NCBI GenBank assembly: GCA_023055425.1
Contig: JALGPY010000010.1
Location: 20,061,363 to 20,125,362 of the forward strand
Source: Linanthus parryae
Taxonomy: Eukaryota > Streptophyta > Magnoliopsida > Ericales > Polemoniaceae
Direction of reading: 5' to 3'
DNA: 64,000 bases
The position numbers and the translations under genes were made by a program. Position 1 is the stretch's first letter, and each line of letters starts with the position of its first letter. The notes beneath the pieces are model-generated. The model was not told the origin of the DNA and ran no database searches. It worked only from the letters and a program-made list of their open reading frames with translations. Of the stretch, positions 1 to 57,806 are shown piece by piece.

Positions 1-502
1 ATCTGCGTTTGAACGCACGGTGTGCGTTTGAACGCAATGCTTGAAGGTTCATGAAATTTCTGGGTTTGTTGAGTTGCGTTTGAACGCACATGAGTTGCGT
101 TTGAACGCAATGCTTGTCCTCTGCAATGTCTTTGATGAACTGCGTTTGAACGCACATACTCTGCGTTTAAACGCACGCCTTGCCTCTAGAAATTCTCTGC
201 TGATTGGGTTTTGCGTTTGAACGCAGGGTCTGCGTTTGAACGCACGTTCTTAGATTTTTCCACCTCATCTCTGTCTTCTTGCGTTTGAACGCACATGAGT
301 TGCGTTTAAACGCACCACTTGGTGGCTGGAAATTTTCACTGCGTGATCTGCGTTTGAACGCAGCTCCTCTGCGTTTGAACGCATAAGTGTTAGCCGTTTC
401 CAGTGCTTCTTCTGTCGATTGGTGGGTCTGCGTTTGAATGCAGGGTGTCTGCGTTTGAACGCACTTGTGCATTTGAACGCATGTCTCCTGCGTTTGAACG
501 CA
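1..502 (-). repeat. 3' LTR (U3) array of paired 14-bp palindromes, 16 units
   Basis: Sixteen copies of TGCGTTTGAACGCA or close variants start at 4, 23, 75, 96, 141, 162, 212, 231, 280, 301, 349, 370, 429, 450, 468 and 489. The half-sites TGCGTT and AACGCA are inverted around a 2-bp centre; the copies at 162 and 301 (centre TA) are perfect palindromes. Copies come mostly in pairs 18-21 bp apart, and the pairs recur every 66-80 bp. The spacers between pairs are not conserved. Lying beyond the polypurine tract of the minus-strand element, this is probably the U3 of the 3' LTR, but its ends were not aligned to the other LTR. Confidence 0.85.
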
Positions 503-675: not shown

Positions 676-3600
676 TTACGGAAGGTCGAGGTAGAGTGCC
701 TCTACCTCCATGATCTCCTGAGGATCCCTGTATGGCTTGACTCTGTTCCCATTCACCTTGAAAACTGTATTATCCCTCGGGTTCTCCAGCTCCACCACTC
801 CCCATGATGTAATGTCCTTCACAATAAATGGTCCAGACCATCTTGAGCGCAGCTTCCCTGGATAGAATTTCATCCTTGAATTGTAGAGGAGAACCTTTTG
901 CCCGATATCTATCTTCTTTGGTAGAATGCGGTTGTCATGCCACTTCTTTGTTTTTTCTTTATAGATTTTGGCACTCTCATATGCAGTTTTACGGAATTCC
1001 TCCAGTTCAAGGAGTGCCATCTTCCGTTTGTTTCCTGATAAACTGTGATCCATATTCAGCTGCTTGATTGCCCAGTATGCTTTGTGCTCCAATTCTGCTG
1101 GTAAGTGACATGCTTTACCAAACACCAACTGGTATGGGGACATTCCCAATGGGGTTTAATAAGCAGTTTTGTATGCCCAGAGCGCATCATCCAGCTTTAA
1201 TGACCAGCCCTTACGTCCAGGATTCACAGTTTTTTCCAGTATGCTCTTTATCTCTCTGTTGGACACCTCTGCTTGCCCGTTCGCCTGAGGGTGATAAGGC
1301 AGTGATACCTTATGGATAGACACCCCCTACTGCTTTAGAACCTTGGCAAAGACTTTATTGATAAAATGAGAACCTTCATCACTGACCATGGCCCTCGGTG
1401 TTCCAAATCTGGTAAAGATGTTACGTTTGAGGAATCTTTCCACGACTGACGCATCGTTCTTCTGACAGGCTATTGCTTCCACCCATTTTGACACGTAATC
1501 CACTGCCAGTAAGATGTAGAGATTTCCCAGAGACGAAGGGAAAGGACCCATAAAATCAATACCCCAAACGTCAAAAGGCTCGACTTCCTGCCAAAGTGTC
1601 ATGGGCATTTCATTCCGCTGGGAGATATTTCCTGTCCGTTGGCAGCGATCGCAACTCTGCGCATAATCATGGCAATCCTTAAAAACTGTTGGCCAGAAAA
1701 ATCCTGACTGCAGCACCTTGTGAGCTGTTCTCGGTCCGCTGAAGTGTCCCCCACATTGTGCTGAGTGGCAGTGCTGAATAACCTCCAAAATTTCGTGACA
1801 TGGAATGCATCGACGGAGAATATTGTCTGCCCCTTGCTTGAACAGGTAAGGATCGTCCCAGAAATATTGCCTGCAATCTGAAATAAACTTCTTTTTCTGC
1901 CAAGGGGTGATGTCTTCAGGGAGTGCTCCATTGACCAAATAATTGGCTATGGCATAGTACCAGGGCCGTCTGTTGGTCTTGATCTTCATAATATGTTCAT
2001 CCGGAAAATTTTCTTGAATGGTCACCAATTCTTCTGTGGGGTTCTCCAGACGAGATAGATGATCAGCTACTACATTTTCAACTCCCTTTTTATCCCTGAT
2101 TTCGACATCAAATTCCCGCATCAGCAGAATCCAACGCAGCAACCGTGGCTTTGCGTCCTTCTTCTCCAGTAAGTATTTCAGTGCACTGTGATCTGTGAAT
2201 ATGATGACTTTTGAACCTACCAGGTACGATCTGAATTTATCCAGGGCAAAAACGACTGCCAGCAGCTCCTTCTCTGTAGTCCCATAATTAATCTGCGCCT
2301 CATTCAGGACCCTGCTGGCATAGTAAATGACACTGCACACCTTGTCCTTCCGCTGTCCCAGTACTGCGCCCACTGCGTAATCACTGGCGTCGCACATCAG
2401 TTCGAACGGAAGGGTCCAGTCTGGTGTTGTGATAATGGGTGCAGTCGTCAGCCTCTCTTTAAGCACGTCAAAAGCTTCTTTGCAGGCTTCATCAAATACG
2501 AAGGGCACCTCTTTTCCCAACAAATTACATAGTGGCTTTGTAATTTTTGAGAAATCTTTAATAAACCTTCTGTAAAAACCTGCGTGGCCCAAAAAACTCT
2601 TAATTTCCCTCACTGTGGTTGGATACGGCAACTGCTTGCTCACCTCTATTTTTGCCCTGTCTACTTCCAGTCCTTTGCTGGAAATCCTGTGTCCCAGCAC
2701 TATTCCTTCAGTAACCATGAAGTGGCATTTTTCCCAGTTGAGTACCAGGTTTGTTTTTCTGCAGCGAATCAGAACTCTGGCCAGATGGTATAAGCAATCT
2801 TCGAAGCTGTCTCCGAATAACGAAAAATCGTCCATGAAAACTTCCAAATTTTTCACTATCATATCAGAGAAAATAGCCATCATACATCTTTGGAATGTTG
2901 CTGGAGCATTGCACAATCCAAATGGCATTCGTCTAAAGGCGAACGTTCCGTACGGGCAAGTGAACGTCGTCTTTTCTTGGTCTTCTGGATTTATATAGAT
3001 CTGGTTGTAGCCAGAGTACCCGTCGAGAAAGCAGTAATAAGCATGGTGCGCTAGTCTGTCCAACATCTGGTCCATGAATGGCAGCGGAAAGTGGTCTTTC
3101 AGTGTGGCATCGTTCAGCTTCCGATAGTCCATACAGATTCGCCAGCGAGTGACAGTGCGCTGGGCGATCTGTTCTCGATCAGCATTCTGTACTACTGTAA
3201 TACCCCCTTTTTTCGGTACACACTGGACAGGACTGACCCAGGTGCTGTCTGATATGGGGTATATAATTCCTGCTTCTAGCCACTTCATGACCTCCTTACG
3301 TACCACATCTTTCATAATTGGGTTTAGTCCCCGTTGAGGCTGGATAACTGGCTTCTTTCCGTCTTCGATTCTTATTTTGTGCATGCAATAATCAGGACTG
3401 ATTACCTTTAGGTCTGCAATTGTCCATCCAATGGCTTCTTTATGCTCTCGGAGTACCTCCAGCAGCTTTTGTTCCTGTTCCTGAGATAAAAGAGAAGAAA
3501 CAATTACCGGCAGAGTATTATTTTTACCAATAAAAGCGTACCTGAGGTGGTCTGGCAACTGTTTTAATTCCAGGACTGGTGGTTCCTGGAGTGACGGCAC

Positions 3601-5274
3601 CAGTGTCATTTTCTGCTCGCCTCCTTCATCCCTATATAGCGTGACCCAACTTTCTGTTCCCATGATCTGCTCGTCCTGTTGCTCCTCTGTTTCCTCTGGA
3701 TACATGTCTTCAAATTCCTCCCATAAATCGTCTATCTCATCACTTTCCAGATCGTCAATTACCTCTACTGCAAAACAGTTTTCATGCCCATAATGGTCAG
3801 GAAGCTGGAGAGATTTGAAAACATTGAATTTTACTTTTTCTTCATTGATTTGCATGGACAGCTCTCCACTTTTGCAGTTAATAATGGCTTCACCAGTCGC
3901 CAGGAAAGGTCTGCCCAGGATTAGCGGGACCTCTCCGGCCTCCATATCCAGTATCACAAAATCTGCTGGAAAAATAAGCTCTCCCACTTTCACCAGGATA
4001 TCTTCAATTACTCCATAGGCAGGTTTCACAGACCTGTCAGCCATTTGAAGCATGATTCTTGTGGGACGTGGTTCTCCGACTCCTAGACTTTTGAAGATGG
4101 TCAGTGGCATCAGGTTGATGCTGGCACCCAAGTCGCATAAGGCTTTTCTTGTGTATGCACTTCCCAGGGTTACTGGAATAACAAAGCTGCCAGGGTCTTT
4201 CTTTTTCAGTGGTAGGCCATTTTTCACACAAGTGCTCGCTTCTGCCGTCAGATTCACTGTTTCGAAGTCACTCATTCGCCTTCTCCCGTACAATATGTCT
4301 TTAAGAAATTTCGCATAAGTAGGCATTTTGGCAAGTGCTTCGGCAAAATGTATGTTTATCTGCAATTGCTTGAATACCTCCAGAAATCTGGCGTAGTCTT
4401 TGCTGTCATCTCTCTTGCGTGTCTTCAGAGGGTAAGGAACCTCCTTAGAAATTGGCACTGTTTCTGGATTACCCTCATTAGTCTGCGCTGCTTCCTGCTC
4501 GACCGAACCCCTTTTCTGAGGGTTAGCGGTTGAACTGTCTTCCCGGTCAATTACTTCCTGTTCAATATTTTTTGACTTTTCTGCGCGTGCATGACTGGGA
4601 TACGGTGGATCCTGCAGTGCAATTCCACTCCGAGTTGTGATAGCATTGATTTGAGCGCGTGGATTGTTCACTGTGTTTGACGGTAAATTCCCCGGGGCTC
4701 GTTCTGCCTGGTTCTGTGCAAGCTGTCCATTCTGTACCTCCAAGTTGCGGATAGCAATCTTCATCTGGCTTACATCAGCAGTTAATGACTCCATCTGCGC
4801 GAATCTAGTTTCCCACTGCTTATTGAATTTCTCCATATAGGACTCAAAATGTTGCTGTGACAAATTTAGTTGTGGTGCTGCTTGTGCAGGCTGAGCTGGA
4901 GCTGTCTGTTGTGCCTGTGGCCTGTGCTGGAATCCTGGTGCATATACTGCTGCATTGGGGTTTCCGTAGCGAAACCCAGGATGATCACGTGTGCCTGGTC
5001 TGTAGCGACTAGGATCCCACTGCTGCTGAACATAGTTGGCATCTTCGGTTTGAAGCTCCAGAATTGCCGCGTCAAAGTCAGGTTCTTCTACTGATGCCAC
5101 CGGCTTCTTATCTGTATACACCTTCTTGACTAGGTCCTGTACCACCTTCGTGAGATTGTCAATCCTGTCATCAACCACTGGTTCTGCTACTGCTGTGAGC
5201 CTGCGGTCATCAAACAGGCGAGTATCCTGTTTGGCTAATTGTTTCATCAGTTCATATGCTCCATCCTTATCCAC
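676..5274 (-). pseudogene. pol: gypsy pol (protease, reverse transcriptase, RNase H, integrase), broken by two stops
   Basis: The longest open stretch (1327-5274, 1315 codons) holds an aspartic protease (motif [10 protein letters not shown]), a reverse transcriptase (catalytic FMDD in place of YVDD, preceded by [15 protein letters not shown]), RNase H ([14 protein letters not shown], later TDHSALKYL and ADHLSRL) and an integrase with an HHCC zinc finger (H..H, CDRC) and the first two acidic residues of the DDE triad (GIDFMGPF and VSDEGSHF). An in-frame TAG at 1327-1329 stops it. The same frame continues past that with the DDE glutamate region ([10 protein letters not shown]), hits TAA at 1156-1158, and resumes to 676 with the integrase C-terminal domain ending near VEALYLDLP. 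The breaks look like point mutations, since the frame is kept on both sides. The N-terminal 40 codons are really the end of gag. Confidence 0.93.
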
Positions 5275-6083
5275 ATGGTATAAAAAGTTCCCCCAGCTTC
5301 CCTATCAATCATGTCAGCATTCTCCCTGTCAAGAGCATGGTAGAATACCTGCAGAATTTTCGCGTCCCCGAAGCCGTGATTGGGGCATTTTTTAACGAGT
5401 CTCATCAACCTGTCCCATGCGTCTACCACTGTCTCCCCCATCTGCTGTTTGAAAGATAAAATCTCACTCTGCAGCTTGATAACGCGGGATGCAGGGTAGA
5501 ATTTTGCCAAGAAATCAGCAACACACCCCTCCCAGGTAGTGATAGACCTCGGTGGCCTTGCCTCCAGCCAATCTTTTGCTGTTCCGAGCAAACAGTATGG
5601 GAATAAAATCAGCTTTAGCGTGTCCGCTTCGACTCCTCTATACTTAATCTTGTTGCAGTAATCTTCAAATTTTCCAAGGAAGTCGTTTGGATCTTCATCT
5701 GCCTTCCCATTAAAAGGACAATGAGTCTGGGCGGTCTGAATGGTGGATGACTTCAGATCGAAGTGCTCTGCTGTAATGGGTGGCACTACGATAGCTGGTT
5801 GATGTCCTCCGGTTGGGACTTCGAAGTTTTCAACTAACGCCCTTCCAGACCTGTTATAAGTCCTCTGATTGTTCCTGGCAGCAAAACCTGCTGCTATCAG
5901 CTCTTCAATGTAAAGAGCCATCTATGCTGGAGTACGTTGCTGTTGTCCTATGGGTGTTCCTGTTTCGGTTGTGGTGTCTTCTCCGTGCTCAGACATCGCG
6001 GCTCGGTGTCTGCGACTTTGCTCTCTGAAAAGTTTTTCGGGATCTTCAAGTGGTGATACCAGTTTGCTAGGCAATCTGGGCAT
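5247..6083 (-). pseudogene. gag: gypsy gag (capsid), premature stop and frameshift
   Basis: The likely start is the ATG at 6081-6083, which opens a frame beginning MPRLPSKLV. It meets TAG at 5922-5924, and the same frame continues for 224 codons to 5247. That part carries the capsid-type Retrotrans_gag region (KLILFPYCLLGTAKDWLEA, then a WDRLMRLVKKCPNHGF stretch). Near 5275 the gag reading shifts out of frame with pol: the natural continuation ([11 protein letters not shown]) lies in the pol frame, so a small insertion or deletion sits close to 5275-5285. Related elements normally have gag and pol as one frame. The frame after the shift ends within 10 codons. Confidence 0.85.
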
Positions 6084-6210: not shown

Positions 6211-6227
6211 CCCCGGCAACGGCGCCA
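6211..6227 (-). other. Primer binding site, tRNA-Asp type
   Basis: On the plus strand CCCCGGCAACGGCGCCA matches the 3' end of plant tRNA-Asp, so the minus strand carries its complement TGGCGCCGTTGCCGGGG just inside the 5' LTR. A 5-bp gap separates it from the TG dinucleotide taken as the LTR edge at 6233. Confidence 0.9.
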
Positions 6228-6615
6228 AAAACTTGACAGCGTAAACCTATCTGCTTTTTCGCAAGTGTACGATCAAGTAATATAGAGTATGTAATTGTGA
6301 CTCTGGTTGTCGAACCCTCGAGAACAGTTTAAGTTGTTGCTAATTAGAATTAGAATCAGACACAAAGTTTGTAAAAAGGAGGAAGGTTTGGGGTTTGATT
6401 CTACTTACTAAATTGCAGTAAATAAAACAATATTTTAGGAACGCTTATTTTATTTTTCTTCTAAATATTTCGCAGAAATTACGGTAATTGTAGAAATCGA
6501 TAATGCTAAGAATCTAGGTTCCAAGATCCCCTAGGGTTACTCTCCAGCTTTCATGGTATATTTGATTTCAGAAACACACAATGGTTTTATTTATGCCAGC
6601 ATACCAACAGTACAA

Positions 6616-6800
6616 TCTCCTCTCGGTCTCATGCACCTATCACTCTCCTACAGATTTTCGGGTCCTCTCGGTTCACCTAAATCTGCAGGTTCATTCTAAG
6701 TCTGCTAGTGTTACAGGTTCTCCTCTCGGTCTCCCCCTAAACGTCTAACAGTTGGTCTAATGCTCCTGGGCTAGTCCCCTGATTCTCTTCACCTCTCGGT
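6616..6800 (-). repeat. Four dispersed CCTCTCGGT repeats in the LTR leader
   Basis: Near-identical CTCTCGGT boxes (ACCGAGAG on the transcribed strand) occur around 6618, 6665, 6723 and 6793, spaced about 50-70 bp. They lie downstream of the TATA box, hence in R or U5. Their function is unknown. Confidence 0.6.
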
Positions 6801-7237
6801 CCATCAAGGCAGAGTACTAAATCCTGTCTTTTCTTCCTAACTCTCACTGGTCACTCTCGCGCACCAGATCCTGTCTGTAACACTCCTGGGTGATCAGGCC
6901 ATTCATGTATTAAATAAAATCAAAGACAGAATAATAAACAATCCATCCTATATTAAGACTTAGCTAGCCATGCATCTGAAAATCAAACAACCAAGTCTGC
7001 TGAATTCATAAACCCTAGGTTCACCGAGAACCTAGGCAAAAGGTCTAGCTAGCTTGCATTATTGAAAGACAACGTTTCATAAAAGAGAGAAAAGATCAAA
7101 CTAGTTATTTGCTGAAATACTGAAAAACTGCTCCAATCCTGCTCTGCTCCAACCCTGGCGGCTCTGAAACTGGGTGTTGTGATGATGATAGATGTGTCAG
7201 TGTGTATGTGTAACCCTAATTCAGTGCTGGGACACCT

Positions 7238-7246
7238 CCTTTTATA
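7238..7246 (-). promoter_or_regulatory. TATA box of the gypsy 5' LTR
   Basis: The minus strand reads TATAAAAGG, a strong plant TATA box, between the palindrome array (upstream, at 7331 and beyond) and the R/U5 leader. Transcription would start about 30 bp further on, near 7205-7215. It fits the expected U3-R boundary. Confidence 0.75.
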
Positions 7247-7330
7247 CTGCCACAGTCTCCAAAACTGATGCACGAAATTCCTGTTTTACCCTCGAAAAGA
7301 CCCGTCCTGGAAGCTTCTGGAAACCCACCG

Positions 7331-7680
7331 TGCGTTCGAACGCAACTCTCCTGCGTTCAAACGCAGTGCGTCTGAACGCACACATCCTGCGTTTGAACGC
7401 AGGCCTTAACCATTTTTCTTCCTCTGGCTTCTGACTTCTGGACACGTGCGTTTGAACGCAGCTTGCCTGCGTCTGAACGCACGCCTTGGCCTTTTCTTCT
7501 TCTGAGTGTCGAGTCCTGCGTTTGAACGCAGACCGCCTGCGTTTGAACGCACCCCTTAAGCTTTTCTGCACTTCAGACTTTGAACCCTGCGTTTGAACGC
7601 ACGCCTCCTGCGTCTGAACGCATGACTTAGCCTTCTTTCCGCCATTTTCCTGCTGCTCCCATCTTGTGCGTTTGAACGCA
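7331..7680 (-). repeat. 5' LTR (U3) array of paired 14-bp palindromes, 11 units
   Basis: Copies start at 7331, 7352, 7367, 7388, 7447, 7468, 7517, 7538, 7588, 7609 and 7667. Partners within pairs are 21 bp apart in five cases, and the pairs recur every ~70-80 bp. The copy at 7331 (centre CG) is a perfect palindrome; others carry TG, CA or a T-to-C change. The block lies 85-440 bp upstream of the TATA box, where LTR enhancers normally lie. Confidence 0.9.
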
Positions 7681-7700
7681 CCACTTAGCCTTTTTTCTCT

Positions 7701-8492
7701 TTTTTCTGCTCAGCTTTCCTGACACGCTGCCTCCCATCCAAGTTAATCTCATGCATTTCTCGGCACCTGTTACCTGCACAACATAACATGTACCCGCGAT
7801 CATATCCAACAAACAAAAGTATGCATAAAATTACTCAAATTTTGCAGTCATGTTCTATAAATCTCTGCCTCGTATCAGGTGGAAAATAAGCTGAAAATGG
7901 CCAAAGTCAACTCTCACAGGGTTAAAACCAATATTAAAAAGATGTCCCAGACTAATCCATTTTCAAGCTGTCAATAGCATGATCATTTAATCTCATATTT
8001 ATTGAAAAATTTTCTTTAACTCATGAGCCAAATCAATTTCGTTGAAAGTTGGACTGGAAAAATATTCTCATTCTGTTTCACATTTATCTGGTCGACTTCT
8101 AGGTTTGAACTCATACACGACCCGATTTCCAGATATGAAGGCACCAACATGATTTGGGTCAAGTCTCGTGAACAAACTAGAAGAGCAACGACTTACAAGT
8201 TTAAACCATATTGAAAGAATTTGTGATAGTTCTGAAAATAGTAATGAAATAAAAATTAAATGACGATGAATCTGGAAGAATATGGAATATTTCTCTCTGA
8301 TGATCGGAGAAGCAAACATGAAAAATTGTACAAGAGAGAGAGAGAGAGAGTAAAAGCCAGCCATTAATGGTGAGATGTAAAACTGAAATGGATGAGAGAG
8401 TGACATGGCCATGCCATGTGAGATTCGGGGAGATAGGAACCGATTTTTTCGAGGAAGGTAGCATTATTGTTAGAAAAATTGTGGGTATGTGA
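7701..8492. other. Intergenic / LTR-flanking DNA without a recognised gene
   Basis: AT-rich sequence with a short (GA)n tract at 8333-8351. The open frames here have no recognisable domain and look random. It may include the unresolved right edge of the gypsy LTR. Confidence 0.5.
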
Positions 8493-40754: not shown

Positions 40755-42540
40755 CTGGTCTGTTTGGCCGAGCTCGAGTTGAAGTTGAGTTCGCCTCTGT
40801 TCTCATATATAGAAGGCTGTCTCTGTTTGATAATTTTTTACAAGTGGTAGCAACGACCACCCGCATAAGAAGCTTATACTAGAGCATAATGGAAGGAAAA
40901 AAGCATGAAGAAAAAACTTAAACCACCACTGTCAAAAGAATTAGCCAATGAGAATGGTGTAGAGTAGGGACTTAATAAGACTACAATTGTACTACACAAC
41001 ATGATCGTAGAAGTAATTCTTTTAAGTCTTCACAAATAGACAAATACTCCCTCCATCCCAAATCAAGTGCCTGAGTGGACTCATCACGTTTCTAGAGATG
41101 TGCTTTTGACTTGCTAGATTTATTGGAATATCCTTTGTATAATGTGATATTTTATCTTGGGAAGCCAACAAGTAATGATTTGAAAATGGGTACGGAGGGA
41201 AGTAATGTGAAAAATTAGGTCATTTTTTGGTAGTAGGACACTCCTCTTGGGACATCCATTTTTGGAAAAGAAGAAACTTAAATTGAGATGAAGGCAGTAT
41301 CTAGTAAGCTTATCCATGAACTTCTAATTGGAATAAGTGAATGAACTTATCTTGCGAGCCTGTAAATAAACGGTTTAAGGCAGATTATTAGCTTTCTCAA
41401 GTCAATTTCATATATGGCTCATTTAAAAAATCGAGTTGATCTCGAACAAGCTTTTATTAAGCCAAATACCAAGCTAATCACCAACTTGACCTGAACACTG
41501 TCAGTATTTACTAATTTAAAATTTACAGGAACTTCGGACATAGTTCTAGTTTTTGAGTGGCTTCCAAGGTTGTAGTTTTAAGCCGCACAACAAATTGGAA
41601 TATGTCAGACTGTTATCTAGGACATATTTAGGGTTAGAATATGGGAAACAGATTATGGATCAGGAAATAGAAAAGGAATGTTTCCGCTAATCAATTGTAA
41701 AAACTATTAACTGTATACTCAGGCAGGGGGAAAGGTAAGAAGAGGAAAAGAATAGCGTTAGACAAACAGGACATGATTGCTAACCCTACATATTAATCTA
41801 TCTAAATTATTTCTTTTTAATCGACAAGAGTTTATGTCTCCAATTTACCTGGTCTGTTCTGCCAAGCTCGAGTTTAAGTTGAGTTTGTCTCTAGGCTCAT
41901 TTATGGAAGACTGTCTCAATCTTATAATGTATTTACTAGTAGTAGCAATTACCACTGGCCTAAGAAGTTTATACTAGCGCGTAACTGATGGAAGAAATCA
42001 TGAAGTAAAAAGTTAAACCACCACAGTGAAAGTAACAAAATGAAAATCATGGAGGATAATGACTCAACAATACAATGATTCCCACTACATAACTTGATCT
42101 TGTAAATACTCCATTAAAGTCTTCACAAATAAATAACGAATTAGGAAATGAGCTTATCTCGTGAGCTTGTAAATAAACTAGTCAAGGCTAAATATAACTT
42201 TCTCAAGTCAAGCTCATGTTTGGCTAGTTTGAAAATCGAGTTTATTGGCTTGTTTTAAAAGCGAGTTGATCTTGAACAAGCTTTTATGGAGCCAAGTTCC
42301 AAGCTACCCATGACCAACTTGACTCTATCATAGTCATAACTGTTGTATTTAATTGATTAAAATCTACAGGAACTTCAAAAGTATTTGTTGTTTTGAGTGG
42401 CTTACATGGTCATAGAATACTAGGGGAATGATTATTAGAATACTAGTGAAATATGTCAGACTGTTATTGAGGACATATTGTAGGGTTAGAGTATGGGATA
42501 GAGAATAGGATTGGAAGAATCATAACGGATGTTTTGGATA
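40755..42540 (+). repeat. Old, diverged tandem duplication in the PRIM2 3' intron
   Basis: Unit A (about 40755-41690) and unit B (about 41845-42540) share ordered blocks: GGTCTGTT-GCC-AGCTCGAG, AAGAAG-TTATACTAG, TTAAACCACCAC, AGTCTTCACAAATA, GAACAAGCTTTTAT, TACAGGAACTTC and TATGTCAGACTGTTAT. Unit A also contains a Stowaway MITE that unit B lacks, so the MITE arrived after the duplication. Confidence 0.8.
41047..41297. mobile_element. Stowaway-like MITE (251 bp)
   Basis: Inverted ends CTCCCTCCATCCCAAATCAAG and, on the other strand, CTGCCTTCATCTCAATTTAAG; TA on both sides (41045-41046 and 41298-41299). It is absent from the paralogous unit B, giving an empty site. Confidence 0.85.
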
Positions 42541-42673
42541 ATGAACTTTAAAAACTATGGACTTTCTCAAAAGAAAAAAAAAGAAAGAAAAAAACTACGG
42601 ATAGTGTACCCAGGCATGATTGCTAACCCTACTTTTGTTCATTTTTGTTATTGACTTGAATATTTCTCTGCAG

Positions 42674-43092
42674 GCTCTTGAGCAGGTTAGCCTTCACGTA
42701 CAAGATTCCAGATGCAATTGCAGATGAGGCACCTTTTGGGTAACGGAGGGCAAATTTCGTACTGTTGGATTGATGTCATATTGCCTAAATTTGTAGTATG
42801 AGTGATGTCAAGAATTTAAGCTTAACGATAAGTTATGTATATTGCTCTGAAACATGTTTGACTGTAGTTGTCACTTGGTAAGTTTACCTGTGTAAAAGAT
42901 TCCATTTTCTAGTTCTTTCTAGTTCTAACATTCTAGTATGTTATTTATGTTAAAGTCTTTTATTTGGAAAGATAATTTGCATGTAAATATTCAGAAGTTA
43001 AACGTATGCAGGACCAGTTATTATAATTTACTCTCAAGAGAGAACGTAATGGACATTGTTTACGGTCTCCTGGTAAACGATAGGTTTGCCTT
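42674..43092 (+). other. Probable last (3'-UTR) exon of PRIM2, copy 1
   Basis: It follows a good acceptor (CTCTGCAG) and joins the 37292 donor. Spliced in frame after the TGA it adds only untranslated sequence. In a different frame it would read a 22-codon stretch ending ADEAPFG and TAA (42751-42753). The true poly(A) site is not visible; copia-1 lies from 43098. Confidence 0.5.
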
Positions 43093-43097
43093 CATAC

Positions 43098-43218
43098 TAA
43101 TAGGTGTAGGACTCGTCTTGTAATTACTAGATGACTAATTTGTGTAATTAGTGTTGTAATTACCTATTTAAAGGTGTGAATACTCAATGAAAAACACGAA
43201 AGATTTCTCCCACTTTCA
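43098..43218 (+). repeat. copia-1 5' LTR (121 bp)
   Basis: TAATAGGTGTAGGACTCGTC to CCCACTTTCA. It differs from the 3' LTR at a few positions, including G/T at base 7 and a GATGACTAA/GAGGACGAA change. Confidence 0.9.
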
Positions 43219-43231
43219 TGGTATCAGAGCC
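43219..43231 (+). other. copia-1 primer binding site
   Basis: TGGTATCAGAGCC directly after the LTR; complement of initiator tRNA-Met. Confidence 0.93.
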
Positions 43232-44030
43232 CTAGCCCTCTGATTATCCTCCCCGTCGTGCCGGCCTCACGCCACCGAACACAGCAGTATCGTCCTCCCT
43301 CACAGACGAACGTCGCCCTCCTTACTTCTGATTCCTCCGATCGTACCCCTAATTGCGACGTCGTCTCTTTCCCACTGTCGTCGTCGTCCACGTTGTTGGG
43401 GTCATCATTGAAGTCCACCTCTGCTTCCGCTTCTCAGTCGTCCACCTCTGTGCCCTAATCGACGAACTCATCGCCACCAGAATCGCCGGGCCTCTTCCCC
43501 GCTCTGGTCCCTTTACTCTGCCGTCGATTTCATCGCTGGTCTCTCTCGCGCCGTTGATTTCCCCGCTGCTCAAGCGGTTCAAACCGTTGAACCGTGCTTC
43601 CTCTCCTACGAAGGTTCTTGGGAATCGGTGTTCAGGTTGGTTAAGAACACCGAAAGATCATCGTCGTCGGTTTCAGCGAAGAGAGCGAACGAGTTCTTTC
43701 CTTTCGGCTTCATCTTTGCTTCATCTGTGGTTTGCAACTAGCAACCAGTGGATTGTGGGGCTTGATATTTGACCAGTGTATTTTTTTTTATTGAGTAAAC
43801 ACTTTGTTTCTGTTTGCCCAGGGGCTTGTGGGTCGGTTTATTCACTTGTCCACTTGGTGTGCAGATTACTTTGGGTGAAATCAATTCTTGGATATTATGT
43901 TGGGTTTTAGTTGATTCAAAAAAAAAAAAAAAAGGAAAAGGAAAATTTTCAGTAACCTTCCCAGCGCTGTAGCTCGGCTCAGCTTGGCTTGTCACCCATT
44001 TTCAGCTCCTTTTTGACTTGATTTTGGCTT
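43232..44030 (+). other. copia-1 leader / gag N-terminal region without a recognisable capsid frame
   Basis: GC- and TCG-rich sequence (43240-43740) in which no frame shows the usual copia gag N-terminus, followed by an AT-rich stretch with an A-run (43918-43934). Stops occur in all frames. The capsid part of gag appears deleted or replaced. Confidence 0.55.
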
Positions 44031-44420
44031 ATGTCTCAGTTTCAAATGGCTCCTTCAACATTACCACCAACCAAGCAATCAAAGGGTGGTCAGGGACATG
44101 GTTGGCGTCGTCGTCAGTCTAGCTGCAAAGGATACAATCAGACTCAGCAATACTCCCAACAGTATCTTGCACCGCCTGCCTCTCCTCACGGCAACTGGGT
44201 GTGGTGTCCTGCCCCATCGTCCCCAACTGTTCAGTCGGGCCTATATCCCCCGACACCGGGTTGGACACAGTCAGGACCCTCTCAGCCTATAGTTACGTCT
44301 GGTATTCTTGGTCCAGGACCTTCTCAGCAGGGCCTCACAGTCGCTTCTGCCTACCCGCCTGCTACTGATTTGGGATCTCAGTTCTCTGGCATGACACTCA
44401 ACGTTCCGGATCAGACTTGA
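44031..44420 (+). pseudogene. gag: copia-1 gag C-terminal fragment
   Basis: It is Gln/Pro-rich, with WVWCPAPSSPTVQSGLYPPTPGW, then GILGPGPSQQ. TGA at 44418-44420 cuts it from the protease motif YLDSGTSPHLT that follows directly in the same frame. Confidence 0.75.
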
Positions 44421-46008
44421 TATCTTGATTCCGGCACATCTCCTCATCTCACTCCGCAGTCAGGTATACTCTCCTCTCTCTCTCTCTCTCTCTCTCTCGT
44501 CATCTTGTCCTTTTCCTAACATACTTGTGGGAAACGGATCTAGCATTCCAGTGAAAGGATCTGGCAATCACACCCTTACCACCAACTCCCGTTCCCTTCA
44601 CCTTAGAAATGTCTTACTCACCCCAAATGTTTCTGTTCGTCAATTCACTACTGACAACAATGTTTTCGTTGAGTTTGACCCTTTTGGTTTTTCTGTAAAG
44701 GACCTACAATCGGGAGCTCTTTTACAGAGGAGCAACAGTTCGGGTGATCTCTATCCATTCCAGTCTGTCCCACCACCGTCGTCTGCTATCTCTTTTGCTG
44801 CCTTTCCTGCTTCCGTTTGGCACAACCGCCTTGGTCATCCCGGGCGTCTAGTTTTAGATTTGCTTCGTAGTAGTCATTTCATTTCTTGTAGTAGTCATAA
44901 TTCAGAAGCTCTTTGTCATGCTTGTCAAATTAGTAAACACGTGCGTTTGCCTTTTTCACCATCTACTTCTTCTACTTCTAGTCCATTTGACATTGTTCAC
45001 AGTGATCTATGGACATCTCCGGTCTTAAGCAAATCGCACTACAAATACTACCTACTACTATTAGATGACTATACCCATTTTGTCTGGGTTTTCCCACTTA
45101 AACAAAAAGCGAAGAGATATCAAAATTTAAACAATTCACTACCTTAATACAAACTCAATTTGAGCGACTCATCAAAACTTTTCAATGTGACCTTGGTGGA
45201 ATTCGATAATGGCTCTTTTCACTCTCACGCCATTAATCATGGACTTGTCTTCCGGTTTGCGTGTCCTCAGACGTCATCTCAAAATGGCAAAGCTGAACAC
45301 ATGATTCGTCGAATCAATGACATCAGTCGTGCCCTCCTAGCTTAGGCCTCCCTTCCAGTCTCTTTCTGGGTTGAGTCTCTTCTGACTGCTGTCTACCTTC
45401 ATAACATTCTTCCCACCAAAGTCCTTGGCAACAATATTCCTACTGTTTCCCTCTACCATCGCTCACCATCCTATGAGCATCTCCGCACGTTCGGATGCTT
45501 GTGTTACCCGAACCTCTATGCCACCTCACCTCACAAGCTTGCACCACACTCTGTTCGATGTGTCTTTCTGGGGCACCCTCTTAATCATTGTGGGTACAAG
45601 TGTCTAGACTTGAGTACTGGTCGGGTTCACACTTCCCGTCATGTCACCTTTGATGAGACTGTGTTTCCTTTCTCCACTCCTGGGTCTGTGTCTCCCTCTG
45701 TTCACAGGACGTCTGATCCCGATGACAGTCTTCCGTCTCCCGTTTTCACTCATCGTGCTCATAATCCTGTGGCACACACACCCTCACCCACCCCTCCTAG
45801 GGCATCCACATCACCACCCGCACCTACTAGGGCACCCACACAGCTTTCCCCGTCCAGGACCCTTGTGGAACCTTTTCCTCAGCACTACGTCCGTCGGTCT
45901 GTGTCCACTCGCCCTCCTCATGTACCCTCTGTGCCTGTGTTACCTGACCCCCCCGATTCACCCACACCGAGCCCACTGGCCACTTCTCCTCCCCATCTCT
46001 CTCCTTAG
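44421..46008 (+). pseudogene. pol: copia-1 protease and integrase, several stops and frameshifts
   Basis: Protease D-S-G motif at 44427. A (CT)n microsatellite at 44470-44498 shifts the frame. GAG-pre-integrase zinc finger (WHNRLGHPG, CHACQISKHVRLPF) and the first integrase aspartate (VHSDLWTSP, LLLDDYTHFVWVF) follow at 44815-45100. TAA at 45145-45147 and a shift follow; the catalytic region (TSSQNGKAEHMIRR) lies at 45160-45345 and ends in TAG, after which the same frame continues to TAG at 46006-46008 through FGCLCYPN, RCVFLGHP and a proline-rich linker. Confidence 0.88.
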
Positions 46009-47642
46009 ATGACTACCAGATCCATGCATGGCATAGTCAAACCAGTCACCCATCTCACTTTAGCGGCCCAGCCACCAGACCCCATCTCGCCCCTTCCCAA
46101 ATCCCCCATCCTAGCCTTGTCGGATCCTCACTGGAAAGCGGCCATGGATGATGATTTTGGAGCTATGGCTATGAACCACACTTGGGATCTGGTTCCTCGC
46201 CCGGTAGGGGCTAATGTTCTGCGATCTATGTGGCTCTTTCGCCACAAGTTTCGCGCTGATGGTAGTCTGCAGCGCTATAAGGCGCGATTGGTAGCTAATG
46301 GGAAGTCCCAGATGATTGGGATTGATTGTGAGGAGACTTTCAGCTCGGTTGTCAAACTGACCACCATCCGTACAGTTCTCAGCATTGCCTTCACGCGCTC
46401 TTGGCCTATCCGTCAGCTGGATGTCAAGAACGCTTTTCTTCATGGTGATCTCTCTGTGACGGTATACATGCATCAGCCCCCTGGCTACCGCGACACACGC
46501 CATCCTAACTTTGTTTGCCGGTTACGCAAATCCTTATATGGTCTGAAGCAGGCTCCCCGTTCTTGGTTTCAGCGATTTGCCACCGTCCTCACACAGACTA
46601 TCGGTTTCTCTGGTTGCTCATGTGATGAGTCTCTCTTCGTCTACAGTCGTGGCTCGGACATTGTCTACCTCCTGCTTTATGTGGATGATATCGTCATCAC
46701 TGGGTCGTCTCCGGTTTTCTTGGATCAGATTGTCTCCAAACTCTCTGGAGAGTTTGCTATGACTGACCTAGGCCATCTGCATCACTTTCTGGGCATTGCT
46801 GTCACCCGTGATTCATCTGGCCTGTTCCTGTCTCAGCATCAGTATGCGACCGACATTCTTCGTCGTGCCTCTATGTCGACCTGTAAGTCTACTGCCACCC
46901 CTGTTGAGGTAGGAAGTAAACTCACAGCTACATCTGGCCCACCGGTTGCTGATCCTACATTGTACGCAACCTTGCTGGGGCTTTGCAGTACCTCACGTTC
47001 ACTCGACCAGACATCCAGTATGCAGTTCAGCAGGTTTGTCTCTTCATGCATGACCCCCGTGAGCCGCACTTTCATGCCCTGAAGCTTATCTTGCGCTACA
47101 TCAGTGGGACACTTGAGTATGGTCTCCGGCTCTCTGCCTCCGCTGCTGATTCCCTCACCGCCTACACTGACGCGGATTGGGCTGGTTGTCCGGACACGCG
47201 CCGCTCCACTTCTGGTTACTGTGTCTTCTATGGGGACAATCTTCTGAGTTGGTCGTCCAAGCGACATGCCACAGTATCTCGTTCTAGTGCTGAGGCTGAG
47301 TATCGCGGTGTTGCTAACGCCGTCTCCGAACTCTGCTGGGTCCGGAATTTGCTTATTCAGCTTCGTGTCACCCCGCCTGGGGCCACTGTCGTGTATTGCG
47401 ACAATGTGAGTGCTGTCTATCTCTCTGGTAATCCTGTTCAGCATCAGCGCACTAAGCATGTTGAGATTGATCTACACTTCGTTCGTGAGAAGGTTCGTAT
47501 GGGTCAGCTTCGCGTGTTGCACATTCCAGCAGATTATCAGTACGCCGACAGCTTAACCAAGGGTCTTCCTCGGCCCTTGTTCCAGCTTTTCCGTTCCTGT
47601 CTCAGTGTTAGCACGCCTACAATTTCGACTGCGGGGGAGTAA
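46009..47642 (+). pseudogene. pol: copia-1 reverse transcriptase and RNase H, frameshifted
   Basis: 46009-47082 includes WKAAMDDDFGAM, YKARLVANGKSQ, QLDVKNAFLHGDL, LYGLKQAPRSWF and the catalytic LLYVDDIVITGS. A frameshift near 46980 moves the rest to 46983-47642, with TRPDIQYAVQQVC, the RNase H site TDADWAGCPDTRRSTSGYC, AEAEYRGVA and VEIDLHFVREKV. In intact copias these parts form one frame. Confidence 0.9.
47631..47639 (+). other. copia-1 polypurine tract
   Basis: GCGGGGGAG immediately before the 3' LTR at 47640. Confidence 0.85.
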
Positions 47643-47760
47643 TAGTTGTAGGACTCGTCTTGTAATTACTAGAGGACGAATTTGTGTAATTAGTGTTGTA
47701 ATTACCTATTTAAAGGTGTGAATACTCAATGAAAAACACGGAAGATTTCTCCCACTTTCA
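47640..47760 (+). repeat. copia-1 3' LTR (121 bp)
   Basis: TAATAGTTGTAGGACTCGTC to CCCACTTTCA, followed by the duplication CATAC. Confidence 0.9.
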
Positions 47761-47765
47761 CATAC

Positions 47766-48392
47766 ATGCTTAAGAGCTTTTGCAATATATTCTATGAGAT
47801 GTTCAGTATCTGATTGTGCATCCTTAGATGGCATTTTGGGTAACTTAGGCAACGTGATGCTATTATAAGCAAGTCTAATCACCAGCTGTGCTTCATCCGT
47901 GTTCCACAAGGAGCTTTACATACTCCCTCTATAACATTCATCCCTCCTTCAGCAAGAATTCACTCCATATGTCCTCCTAATCATCTCTTCCTTGATTCAC
48001 TCATGCAATCTACCATCACAACACACGAACACACACATTAACCTCAACTGACATCCCTCTAAATTTCACTTGATACCTTAGTAATCATTCCACCTATATC
48101 ACTAAATAATACTAACTTGCTTGTATCTTTATGTTTTATGTTTCACTCCGTTCAAATATTTTTGCTGTGTTTCCCATTTGTTTTGTGCAGTGCTTCCTTT
48201 CTTTCTCTCTCTGTGTAGCAGTTGCAAGAGCTCTCGTTCTCCCACCACTAACATTGGACTCTGACTCCTCAAACATGACTCAAGAACTACAGGACCAAAG
48301 AGGTCACATCATTCCAGCGGATGTGGATCTTATGAAGACACTAAGAGGCTTCTGGAAATTTACATTGGTGACAAAAATGCTTGATATTCTCC
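47766..48392. other. Host DNA between copia-1 and copia-2 with two coding-like stretches
   Basis: On the minus strand, 47766-47912 reads LWNTDEAQLVIRLAYNS and on to DTEHLIEYIAKALKH, with a possible acceptor AAAG before it and a possible donor CAT|GTATG at the copia-1 insertion point. On the plus strand, 48219-48392, after a pyrimidine tract and TAG, reads VARALVLPPLTLDSDSS and on to KTLRGFWKFTLVTKMLDIL; it is cut by copia-2. I recognise neither protein. They may be exons of one or two host genes; strength is moderate to low. Confidence 0.4.
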
Positions 48393-49381
48393 TGAGAACA
48401 AATGAGAAGAAGAGGAAGAATAGAAACCCTAACTGGAGAGAATTAGGAAAGTTGTATTTCATTAACAAACTCAATTAAATACTAACATGATTTATACCCA
48501 ACTTCTAACAATCATAACATAATACACAAGTATTCTGTATTTACACAATTGACCCCTCAATCTCCATTAACAACATAATAACACCTAAGCTTCTATATTT
48601 AACATTCCCCCTCACTCTGAAGGTGGGAAAGAGTTACCAGCTGAAGAGTGACCAGAAGATGAACAGTGAGCAGTAGAAACCAAGCTTGTTTAAGAAGAAC
48701 AAGAAGATGAAGTCACAGAACCTATATCAACAACTCCACGAGCTTGACACAAACCATGAAATCTGGCTGCTGAGAGAGGCTTTGTTAGAAGATCAACTAA
48801 CTGAGATTCAGTACCAACATGATGAACAGCCAAAGCACTAGTAGCAACCCTGTCTCTCACAAAATAACAATCAATCTCCATGTGCTTTGTCCTGCTATGA
48901 AGAACTGGATTCTGAGCCAATTGTAGTGTAGCAACATTATCACAATAGATCACAGGAACCTCATTTAAAGACACCTTCAATTCTGTGAGTAAAATCTTCA
49001 ACCACAACACATCAGAGGCTGTATGAGCAAGAGCTCTAAACTCTGCTTCAGTGGAGGATCTTGAGACTGTAACTTGCTTCATAGAAGTCCAAGCAAGCAA
49101 GTTCTTGCCAGGAAACACACAAGATCCAGTAACTGACTTCCTATCCACTTGATCACCAGCCCAATCACTGTCTGAATAAGCAACCAGATCCAAAGGACTA
49201 GTTTGAAACTTCAATCCAAAATGAACAGTTCCTTTAACATATCTAAGTATTCTGTGAAGAGCTTTTTGATCAGAAACTGCAGGCATATGCATTCTTTGAC
49301 ACACATAGTTCACGACAAAAGATAAGTTTGTCCTTGTAACTGTTAGATATTGCAAAGATCCCACAAGACTTCTAAAAGCAA
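48393..49381 (-). pseudogene. Truncated copia-2 (3' LTR and RNase H end) at the end of duplication copy 1
   Basis: It is the same as 55940-56928: LTR 48393-48604, then the last ~225 codons of RT-RNase H (DSDWAGDQVDRKSVTGSC, TEAEFRALA, CDNVATLQLAQNP). It stops abruptly at 49381, where PRIM2 intron sequence begins. Confidence 0.93.
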
Positions 49382-50214
49382 TTACCTGGTCTGTTCTGCC
49401 AAGCTCGAGTTTAAGTTGAGTTTGTCTCTAGGCTCATTTATGGAAGACTGTCTCAATCTTATAATGTATTTACTAGTAGTAGCAATTACCACTGGCCTAA
49501 GAAGTTTATACTAGCGCGTAACTGATGGAAGAAATCATGAAGTAAAAAGTTAAACCACCACAGTGAAAGTAACAAAATGAAAATCATGGAGGATAATGAC
49601 TCAACAATACAATGATTCCCACTACATAACTTGATCTTGTAAATACTCCATTAAAGTCTTCACAAATAAATAACGAATTAGGAAATGAGCTTATCTCGTG
49701 AGCTTGTAAATAAACTAGTCAAGGCTAAATATAACTTTCTCAAGTCAAGCTCATGTTTGGCTAGTTTGAAAATCGAGTTTATTGGCTTGTTTTAAAAGCG
49801 AGTTGATCTTGAACAAGCTTTTATGGAGCCAAGTTCCAAGCTACCCATGACCAACTTGACTCTATCATAGTCATAACTGTTGTATTTAATTGATTAAAAT
49901 CTACAGGAACTTCAAAAGTATTTGTTGTTTTGAGTGGCTTACATGGTCATAGAATACTAGGGGAATGATTATTAGAATACTAGTGAAATATGTCAGACTG
50001 TTATTGAGGACATATTGTAGGGTTAGAGTATGGGATAGAGAATAGGATTGGAAGAATCATAACGGATGTTTTGGATAATGAACTTTAAAAACTATGGACT
50101 TTCTCAAAAGAAAAAAAAAAAAAGAAAGAAAAAAACTACGGACAGTGTACCCAGGCATGATTGCTAACCCTACTTTTGTTCATTTTTGTTATTGACTTGA
50201 ATATTTCTCTGCAG

Positions 50215-50633
50215 GCTCTTGAGCAGGTTAGCCTTCACGTACAAGATTCCAGATGCAATTGCAGATGAGGCACCTTTTGGGTAACGGAGGGCAAATTTCG
50301 TACTGTTGGATTGATGTCATATTGCCTAAATTTGTAGTATGAGTGATGTCAAGAATTTAAGCTTAACGATAAGTTATGTATATTGCTCTGAAACATGTTT
50401 GACTGTAGTTGTCACTTGGTAAGTTTACCTGTGTAAAAGATTCCATTTTCTAGTTCTTTCTAGTTCTAACATTCTAGTATGTTATTTATGTTAAAGTCTT
50501 TTATTTGGAAAGATAATTTGCATGTAAATATTCAGAAGTTAAACGTATGCAGGACCAGTTATTATAATTTACTCTCAAGAGAGAACGTAATGGACATTGT
50601 TTACGGTCTCCTGGTAAACGATAGGTTTGCCTT
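50215..50633 (+). other. Duplicate of the PRIM2 last (3'-UTR) exon
   Basis: Identical acceptor (CTCTGCAG) and exon sequence to 42674-43092. It lacks upstream PRIM2 exons of its own; it could serve only as an alternative terminal exon for the same gene. Confidence 0.5.
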
Positions 50634-50638
50634 CATAC

Positions 50639-52009
50639 TAATAGGTGTAGGACTCGTCTTGTAATTACTAGATGACTAATTTGTGTAATTAGTGTTGTAA
50701 TTACCTATTTAAAGGTGTGAATACTCAATGAAAAACACGAAAGATTTCTCCCACTTTCATGGTATCAGAGCCCTAGCCCTCTGATTATCCTCCCCGTCGT
50801 GCCGGCCTCACGCCACCGAACACAGCAGTATCGTCCTCCCTCACAGACGAACGTCGCCCTCCTTACTTCTGATTCCTCCGATCGTACCCCTAATTGCGAC
50901 GTCGTCTCTTTCCCACTGTCGTCGTCGTCCACGTTGTTGGGGTCATCATTGAAGTCCACCTCTGCTTCCGCTTCTCAGTCGTCCACCTCTGTGCCCTAAT
51001 CGACGAACTCATCGCCACCAGAATCGCCGGGCCTCTTCCCCGCTCTGGTCCCTTTACTCTGCCGTCGATTTCATCGCTGGTCTCTCTCGCGCCGTTGATT
51101 TCCCCGCTGCTCAAGCGGTTCAAACCGTTGAACCGTGCTTCCTCTCCTACGAAGGTTCTTGGGAATCGGTGTTCAGGTTGGTTAAGAACACCGAAAGATC
51201 ATCGTCGTCGGTTTCAGCGAAGAGAGCGAACGAGTTCTTTCCTTTCGGCTTCATCTTTGCTTCATCTGTGGTTTGCAACTAGCAACCAGTGGATTGTGGG
51301 GCTTGATATTTGACCAGTGTATTTTTTTTTATTGAGTAAACACTTTGTTTCTGTTTGCCCAGGGGCTTGTGGGTCGGTTTATTCACTTGTCCACTTGGTG
51401 TGCAGATTACTTTGGGTGAAATCAATTCTTGGATATTATGTTGGGTTTTAGTTGATTCAAAAAAAAAAAAAAAAGGAAAAGGAAAATTTTCAGTAACCTT
51501 CCCAGCGCTGTAGCTCGGCTCAGCTTGGCTTGTCACCCATTTTCAGCTCCTTTTTGACTTGATTTTGGTTTATGTCTCAGTTTCAAATGGCTCCTTCAAC
51601 ATTACCACCAACCAAGCAATCAAAGGGTGGTCAGGGACATGGTTGGCGGCGTCGTCAGTCTAGCTGCAAAGGATACAATCAGACTCAGCAATACTCCCAA
51701 CAGTATCTTGCACCGCCTGCCTCTCCTCACGGCAACTGGGTGTGGTGTCCTGCCCCATCGTCCCCAACTGTTCAGTCGGGCCTATATCCCCCGACACCGG
51801 GTTGGACACAGTCAGGACCCTCTCAGCCTATAGTTACGTCTGGTATTCTTGGTCCAGGACCTTCTCAGCAGGGCCTCACAGTCGCTTCTGCCTACCCGCC
51901 TGCTACTGATTTGGGATCTCAGTTCTCTGGCATGACACTCAACGTTCCGGATCAGACTTGATATCTTGATTCCGGCACATCTCCTCATCTCACTCCGCAG
52001 TCAGGTATA

Positions 52010-52048
<39 letters not shown>

Positions 52049-55000: not shown

Positions 55001-55307
55001 AAGCATGTTGAGATTGATCTACACTTCGTTCGTGAGAAGGTTCGTATGGGTCAGCTTCGCGTGTTGCACATTCCAGCAGATTATCAGTACGCCGACAGCT
55101 TAACCTAGGGTCTTCCTCGGCCCTTGTTCCAGCTTTTCCGTTCCTGTCTCAGTGTTAGCACGCCTACAATTTCGACTGCGGGGGAGTAATAGTTGTAGGA
55201 CTCGTCTTGTAATTACTAGAGGACGAATTTGTGTAATTAGTGTTGTAATTACCTATTTAAAGGTGTGAATACTCAATGAAAAACACGGAAGATTTCTCCC
55301 ACTTTCA
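50639..55307 (+). mobile_element. copia-1, second copy (made by segmental duplication, not by transposition)
   Basis: LTRs 50639-50759 and 55187-55307, same CATAC flanks (55308-55312 on the right). Same lesions as the first copy, so both derive from one insertion. Confidence 0.92.
51572..55108 (+). pseudogene. copia-1 gag-pol remnants, second copy
   Basis: Same pieces as in copy 1: gag tail 51572-51961, protease/integrase 51962-53555, RT 53556-54629, RNase H from 54530. Differences include 6 extra bases in the (CT)n tract (two more codons in that frame), Lys to Gln in the RT (VSKLSG to VSQLSG), and an extra stop TAG at 55106-55108 replacing the AAG in SLTKGLP, which removes the RNase H tail. 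Confidence 0.9.
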
Positions 55308-55312
55308 CATAC

Positions 55313-55939
55313 ATGCTTAAGAGCTTTTGCAATATATTCTATGAGATGTTCAGTATCTGATTGTGCATCCTTAGATGGCATTTTGGGTAACTTAGGCAAC
55401 GTGATGCTATTATAAGCAAGTCTAATCACCAGCTGTGCTTCATCCGTGTTCCACAAGGAGCTTTACATACTCCCTCTATAACATTCATCCCTCCTTCAGC
55501 AAGAATTCACTCCATATGTCCTCCTAATCATCTCTTCCTTGATTCACTCATGCAATCTACCATCACAACACACGAACACACACATTAACCTCAACTGACA
55601 TCCCTCTAAATTTCACTTGATACCTTAGTAATCATTCCACCTATATCACTAAATAATACTAACTTGCTTGTATCTTTATGTTTTATGTTTCACTCCGTTC
55701 AAATATTTTTGCTGTGTTTCCCATTTGTTTTGTGCAGTGCTTCCTTTCTTTCTCTCTCTGTGTAGCAGTTGCAAGAGCTCTCGTTCTCCCACCACTAACA
55801 TTGGACTCTGACTCCTCAAACATGACTCAAGAACTACAGGACCAAAGAGGTCACATCATTCCAGCGGATGTGGATCTTATGAAGACACTAAGAGGCTTCT
55901 GGAAATTTACATTGGTGACAAAAATGCTTGATATTCTCC
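55313..55939. other. Second copy of the host DNA between copia-1 and copia-2
   Basis: Same content as 47766-48392, including the two coding-like stretches (minus 55313-55459, plus 55766-55939). Confidence 0.4.
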
Positions 55940-56151
55940 TGAGAACAAATGAGAAGAAGAGGAAGAATAGAAACCCTAACTGGAGAGAATTAGGAAAGTT
56001 GTATTTCATTAACAAACTCAATTAAATACTAACATGATTTATACCCAACTTCTAACAATCATAACATAATACACAAGTATTCTGTATTTACACAATTGAC
56101 CCCTCAATCTCCATTAACAACATAATAACACCTAAGCTTCTATATTTAACA
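55940..56151 (-). repeat. copia-2 3' LTR (212 bp)
   Basis: Matches 60447-60658 with a few substitutions. Purines (CAGAGTGAGGGGGAA on the minus strand, 56152-56166) precede it. Confidence 0.93.
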
Positions 56152-56236
56152 TTCCCCCTCACTCTGAAGGTGGGAAAGAGTTACCAGCTGAAGAGTGACC
56201 AGAAGATGAACAGTGAGCAGTAGAAACCAAGCTTGT

Positions 56237-57736: not shown

Positions 57737-57806
57737 AGCTTGTAGCCAAAGAGGTTGAGATATGGATTCATCAACTGTAACAAGTTCTTAATCTGTGACC
57801 ACTGTA

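Follow-up and report, generated by a model that had tools for sequence, protein, structure and literature searches.

The 14-bp palindrome TGCGTTTGAACGCA is arrayed twice within one Gypsy retrotransposon, once in the U3 of its LTRs and again between pol and an extra open reading frame (the eORF), and in both places the array stops at nearly the same distance from a TATA or TATA-like box. The palindromes appear strongly constrained, changing 10–16 times more slowly than the spacers between them, and on the evidence of these sequence comparisons we consider it likely that the arrays are upstream activating regions for two promoters, presumably bound by a dimeric sequence-specific protein.

Results

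The window, by which we mean the whole 64,000-bp stretch C2:20061363-20125362 of a 1.514-Gb genome, holds, together with the adjoining stretch L129, a complete minus-strand Gypsy insertion, which domain order and a single RNase H place in the Athila type (Table 1). We treat it as one complete insertion because its LTRs are paired and GCTAT is found on both flanks; in the sense direction it reads 5' LTR, gag, pol, linker array (18 copies), eORF and 3' LTR. The primer-binding site, TGGCGCCGTTGCCGGGG, is presumably of the Athila type, and the named proteins among the 120 matches listed for the integrase end are all from plants, presumably eudicots. Comparison of the RT region with viral contigs confirmed no relative. 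Within pol the domains follow the Gypsy order, RT and RNase H preceding integrase, and a single RNase H region was matched; an additional RNase H of archaeal type, the mark of Tat, the sister clade of Athila, in the passages of PMC6317226 that treat it, was not found at E ≤ 0.001. The extra ORF matches PF20167 and not the Athila ORF-1 domain, which is not a required feature; an extra ORF with that domain is given for just 16% of Athila elements in the same passages (PMC6317226). Elsewhere in the window (~42220-57800), near-identical Copia-type ORFs are repeated ~7.54 kb apart (e.g., 46009-47082 and 53556-54629) beside oppositely oriented Copia fragments; an ungapped comparison of two Copia blocks gave 0.41 over 2000 bases, an uninformative value, presumably because of indels.

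Table 1. Parts of the insertion and of its two palindrome arrays. Positions are those of the window unless L129 is named.
Feature	Position	Strand	Remarks
5' LTR, TGACAGC...GCTGTCA	6234..7973	-	97.8% identical to 3' LTR
3' LTR	L129 4769-6532		partner of window LTR 6234-7973
Target-site duplication GCTAT	7974..7978	-	other copy past 3' LTR in L129
Primer-binding site TGGCGCCGTTGCCGGGG	6211..6227	-	adjoins 5' LTR
gag (Retrotrans_gag)	5247..5921	-	
pol: protease, RT, RNase H, integrase zinc-binding and core domains	1327..5301	-	
C-terminal integrase part, different frame	676..1155	-	
Linker palindrome array, between pol and eORF	4..502	-	16 of 18 copies in window
Last two linker-array copies	L129 9931 and 9950		past window edge
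eORF	L129 7862-9610		582 aa stop to stop; PF20167, E 8.9e-16
U3 palindrome array, 5' LTR	7331..7680	-	11 copies of the 14-mer
TATA box (TATAAAA), LTR promoter	7240..7246	-	84 bp past near array end
Three-unit heat-shock-element-like site TTCnnGAAnnTTC	7310..7322	-	between array and TATA box

Every copy in the U3 array of the 5' LTR lies within one mismatch of TGCGTTTGAACGCA when either strand is counted (within two on the plus strand alone), and the far end of the array is 434 bp from the LTR TATA box. The preliminary description of this DNA had given eleven copies within one change, 85–440 bp upstream of that box, and our recount agrees, as it does on five pairs with 21-bp spacing, beside which there is a single eleventh copy; the recurrence of pairs every ~70 bp holds approximately, successive pairs starting 36, 80, 70, 71 and 79 bp apart. 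At ≤3 mismatches the window contains 56 matches with both strands counted (27 sites hit twice, once per strand, and 2 further matches), compared with a mean of 3.85 and a maximum of 10 in shuffles, and nearly all of those outside the U3 array fall in the linker array, of which the preliminary description made no mention. Assignment of this second array to the 3' LTR was considered and rejected: its flanks are unlike the 5' LTR, and the 3' LTR itself was found in L129. The array of the 3' LTR (L129 5867-6237) has 12 copies to the 11 of the 5' LTR, a difference of one 21-bp unit that points to copy loss or gain since insertion.

The two arrays are also distinct in composition, with CpG observed/expected ratios of 1.21 and 1.28 versus 0.49–0.56 elsewhere in the element and the window; their GC contents are 0.534 and 0.477, that of the linker array lying below a 50% criterion. 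These CpG-rich arrays persist although the host probably methylates such elements. Between the U3 array and the TATA box lies TTCnnGAAnnTTC, which we take to be heat-shock-element-like; it was found in 47 of the 48 LTR loci examined, of A and B types (38/38 and 9/10 in two sets), and 10 linker promoters examined at the corresponding position had none.

Genome-wide, the exact 14-mer occurs 23,809 times, compared with once for the same letters read backwards, and each of the 100 matches listed has a neighbour within ~170 bp. Exact 14-mers paired across a 7-bp gap number 4,085 (control, 0), and the paired motif was found in 0 viral contigs and 0 prokaryote genome contigs. The bare 14-mer is present in at least 120 viral-contig stretches, of which 80 were examined; 79 carried one copy and one carried two copies 4.3 kb apart, and we take these matches to be chance. 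Two LTR types, A and B, share the 14-mer; their gags are 51% identical over 200 residues, and the U3 of the B type upstream of the array is mostly not alignable with that of A. In one B element (C1:12003500-12011900; L136, L181, L137), the LTRs are 99.3% identical and keep the array, and a search of the interior in three pieces found gag alone, with no eORF and no linker array; of pol there is just a 23-residue stretch at the gag-side end. This gag-only element is probably non-autonomous.

The palindrome ends at 14 bp, the next outward bases being complementary in 8 of 27 cases. Around the core GCGT-N4-ACGC, the arms TGCGT and ACGCA vary less than the centre (2/270 vs 8/81 positions, p 1.8e-4); in A-type LTR copies, chosen at ≤2 mismatches, arm deviations amount to 33 of 3820 positions. 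A TTCAGA centre is present in 122 of 382 A-type LTR copies and 17 of 53 B copies, and TCAG in 1 of 219 linker copies. Steps of 21 bp prevail in A-type LTRs (33 loci: 166 of 21, 20 of 19, 1 of 20 and 2 of 22) and in linkers (13 loci: 72 of 21, 36 of 19), and B-type LTRs have 17 steps of 19 versus 8 of 21 (4 loci); further loci add in-pair steps of 20, 22 and 23. We thus read the two-turn spacing as the commonest, a tendency and not a rule: the 21-bp pairing first noted in this window holds in that form, and the spacing, whose free variation had been named as evidence for a mere minisatellite, does vary in part, over 19–23 bp within pairs. Binding on one face of the helix, as suggested for the dimer, holds at most inside pairs, and there not strictly. 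The pairs do not fall in a common helical phase when a 10.5-bp period is assumed (R 0.19 and 0.07). A 10.0-bp period gave R 0.63 in the LTR array, as one of five periods tried on 11 non-independent copies.

The distance from array to TATA box is far less variable. It is 84 bp in 40 of 42 A-type LTRs (28/30, including the two of this element; 4/4 in L132, L133, L135 and L138; and 8/8), 85 bp in 6 of 6 B-type LTRs (4 and 2), and 83 bp in 22 of 24 linker arrays (2/3, 11/11 and 9/10; 82 in one and 73 in one), counts that are not independent tests, the loci being mostly copies of one another; this element's own linker array ends 83 bp before its TATA-like box. The two A-type exceptions, L164 and L165, both at 99 bp, seem to be the LTR pair of a single element from which the last copy has been lost. 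A set of 20 loci was sampled by position along contig C1 and not by similarity. The independent comparison is essentially that of LTR with linker, and the 84-bp and 83-bp intervals are not detectably similar to each other (z 1.2 global, 1.1 local), whereas the intervals of A and B LTRs are similar (z 9.0 and 10.4). A near-equal distance before two dissimilar core promoters is, among the sequence features considered here, the strongest sign that the arrays would function in promoters. The linker box is a probable second promoter, and we infer transcription from it.

We compared this element with one at C1:11.36 Mb (LTRs L133 and L135; linker and eORF, L134; pol piece, L204). The 5' LTR differs from L133 at 3/154 motif, 49/188 spacer and 27/417 remaining U3 positions (Jukes-Cantor distances 0.020, 0.320 and 0.068), and the linkers differ at 5/252 motif, 58/312 spacer, 7/198 upstream-flank and 43/630 downstream-flank positions (0.020, 0.214, 0.036 and 0.072), the apparent motif divergence in such two-element comparisons being lowered because motif columns were picked by motif resemblance. 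Synonymous distances for the same two elements are 0.254 in pol (733 codons, dN/dS 0.058) and 0.244 in the eORF (557 codons). Because the spacer distances come close to the synonymous distances, the spacers appear to evolve at about the neutral rate; a special acceleration of the spacers was considered and dropped for the same reason. More distant LTR pairs gave 0.019–0.048 for motif, 0.228–0.328 for spacer and 0.055–0.091 for the rest of U3, and the close relatives L133/L135 versus L138 gave 0.012, 0.041–0.046 and 0.017–0.022. The copies of the 14-mer are 94.5% identical between arrays, compared with 26–44% in the flanking 7-bp steps. With the motif at 0.02 against spacers at 0.21–0.32 and synonymous sites at 0.24–0.25, the earlier proposal that the motif itself was preserved while the spacers diverged is borne out, and the opposite outcome, spacers conserved like the 14-mers, did not occur.

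Protection of the motif shows only among replicating copies. Between the two LTRs of each of eight elements, differences accumulated since insertion are 9/1330 in motif, 15/1593 in spacer and 22/3342 in the rest of U3; because the motif is unprotected after insertion, its conservation would reflect selection in the replicating lineage and neither a mutational cold spot nor a plain minisatellite. In a multi-LTR alignment, in which motif columns were majority columns and from which L152 and L164 were left out because the LTR start was not found there, 24 LTRs, chosen to represent one element each (although L142 and L143 probably come from the same element), differ on average by 0.044 in motif, 0.151 in spacer and 0.064 in the rest of U3. 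Variants common to at least three LTRs occur in 4/168 motif, 44/202 spacer and 19/419 remaining columns. The ratio of shared to private changes separates motif from spacer (p 1.5e-4) and spacer from the rest of U3 (p 5e-6), and shows no difference between motif and the rest of U3 (p 0.61), so that the rest of U3 appears to be constrained too and, by this test, the motif is not distinctly more conserved than that remainder. Spacers and synonymous sites are therefore the fair yardsticks.

The eORF is likewise under constraint, with a dN/dS of 0.108 between the two elements (557 codons). Its sole Pfam match, PF20167, is named 'Putative plant transposon protein'. Sequence searches, one of them swamped by low-complexity words, found no homologues of the protein; comparison with solved structures gave a single chance-level match (E 0.5), and a structure prediction from a two-row alignment had a mean pLDDT of 34.6 and no usable fold. 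The leader past the linker TATA box contains a 99-aa open frame (L129 9595-9894). In L134 (1136-3100) the matching frame continues into the eORF, and because of this the start of the eORF protein is uncertain.

Discussion

We favor a reading in which the 14-mer is recognized in double-stranded DNA, with TGCGT and ACGCA arms set around a tolerant 4-bp centre and a dimeric sequence-specific protein as presumed binder; the 14-mer, arrayed ~11–18 times, would form an upstream activating region. The U3 array would serve the promoter of the genomic RNA, the TATA-like box past the linker array would start a separate eORF mRNA, and one regulator would switch on both transcripts. Protein binding, activation, and use of the internal TATA box are what we infer from the arrangement, and as binder a host factor seems somewhat likelier than a protein of the element. 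Two plant sites were considered. The VOZ binding site is given as GCGT-N7-ACGC in a passage of PMC6321167, a spacing that does not fit (the window has 0 sites with N7 vs 25 with N4). The palindromic NAC site TTGCGTG(6n)CACGCAA, as it appears in part of PMC4106437, agrees in its arms, TGCGT and ACGCA, which stand 8 bp apart there versus 4 bp here; GCGT-N8-ACGC has 4 sites in the window, 3 of them overlapping the arrays. One could go further and envision a two-promoter element with one private code, in which arrays ~84 bp from their TATA boxes drive genomic RNA and eORF mRNA, either the eORF product or a host dimer common to all families binds the arrays and keeps them active or unmethylated, gag-only relatives exploit the system by retaining the LTR array without having the gene, and the whole arose independently of the Copia Sireviruses; this fuller scenario we offer tentatively, as a doubtful one.

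Alternatively, the arrays could be targets of an element protein such as the eORF product, with an anti-silencing or activating role like that of VANC, and the gag-only B elements would then be parasitic. The VANC targets described in passages of PMC5735166 are short motifs that cluster as tandem repeats where the element is noncoding, the eORF is constrained, and the linker array stands directly before it, the one B element opened being without both. As a DNA binder, however, the eORF product has little to recommend it, given the single PF20167 match, the lack of homologues in the searches and the low-confidence structure prediction described above, and we regard this alternative as unlikely.

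A role in RNA, through hairpins or as sources or targets of small RNAs, had also been raised in the preliminary description and has been proposed for maize Sireviruses. RNA folding of both arrays is far better than that of shuffles (z -7.15 and -6.36), and palindrome-rich regions of maize Copia LTRs are hot spots of small-RNA mapping according to passages of PMC5311732. Good folding, however, is expected of any palindrome array, and a survey of 71 loci with 1000 clustered copies counted 897 with both arms intact, 68 with a single arm change, 32 with at least two uncompensated changes and 3 scored as compensated, these last looking like poor matches; the hairpin idea thus finds no support in compensatory changes, whose scarcity favors recognition of double-stranded DNA. 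In TTCAGA, the most frequent LTR variant, the dyad is interrupted at its centre, and an RNA model does not predict a fixed TATA distance. Taken together, these points make a role in RNA improbable. An ordinary functionless minisatellite spread by slippage would account for the shared descent of the ~70-bp units (spacer alignment z 4.4–5.9) and for a linker copy number that varies by units from 11 to 18 among relatives, but with spacers diverging at about the synonymous rate and the motif 10–16 times slower, motif and spacer mutating alike after insertion, and the TATA distance fixed in dissimilar flanks, this reading is scarcely credible and, as far as the sequences tell, refuted as it stands.

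The arrays, read as upstream activating regions, can be set beside several known systems. Tnt1-type elements have repeated, partly symmetric cis-acting boxes upstream of the LTR promoter in U3, and we know of none with a second array after pol. Their boxes number two or three per array according to a passage of PMC2829016, versus 11–18 copies here. In VANDAL elements, as portrayed in portions of PMC5735166 and PMC10398659, a short motif has likewise accumulated in tandem in noncoding regions and an extra protein is encoded; they differ in being DNA transposons with a motif other than the 14-mer, and protein binding is shown for VANC and hypothetical here. Retand, of the related Tat lineage of Gypsy, likewise carries arrayed repeats in its noncoding stretch from pol to the 3' LTR, which the relevant passages of PMC11963269 report without an assigned origin or function; the repeats there are family-specific, and those passages contain neither a palindrome common to the LTR nor a TATA distance.

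By analogy, the closest known system is the palindromic repeated motif of the Copia Sireviruses, whose LTRs carry such motifs upstream of the TATA box and, where env is present, upstream of env as well (Bousios et al. 2010; excerpts of PMC2829016). In both cases high-copy palindromes (at least eight copies per element) are clustered upstream of the LTR TATA box in a CpG-rich patch with divergent flanking sequence, and copies stand between pol and the extra gene only when that gene is present, the absence of such copies from elements without the gene resting here on the one B element (n = 1). The excerpts call the motifs Sirevirus-specific among the Copia elements compared, list a CGG-CCG core in 12 of 13 motifs (Table 3) and describe the internal promoter as not conclusively identified (PMC2829016), and elsewhere palindrome-rich LTR regions of maize Copia are said to evolve rapidly (part of PMC5311732). 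The present host, in contrast, is Ty3/gypsy and not Ty1/copia, its core is GCGT...ACGC, its extra ORF carries PF20167, and its internal TATA box is set off from the array by almost as much as the one in the LTR. Among the open-licence papers listed, none describes arrays of this kind in a Gypsy element in its title or abstract, and the 14-mer as a letter string has no match. Repeated palindromic boxes in both the LTR and the region before env were earlier known as a Sirevirus feature among Copia, with the internal promoter unproven there, and the same layout in a Gypsy element, written in other letters and with an internal TATA box, suggests convergent design. The question of how extra ORFs of plant retroelements are expressed becomes directly testable, and a motif distance of 0.02 beside ~0.2–0.3 for spacers and synonymous sites, in a genome with tens of thousands of site copies, speaks directly for cis-regulatory selection within a transposon family.
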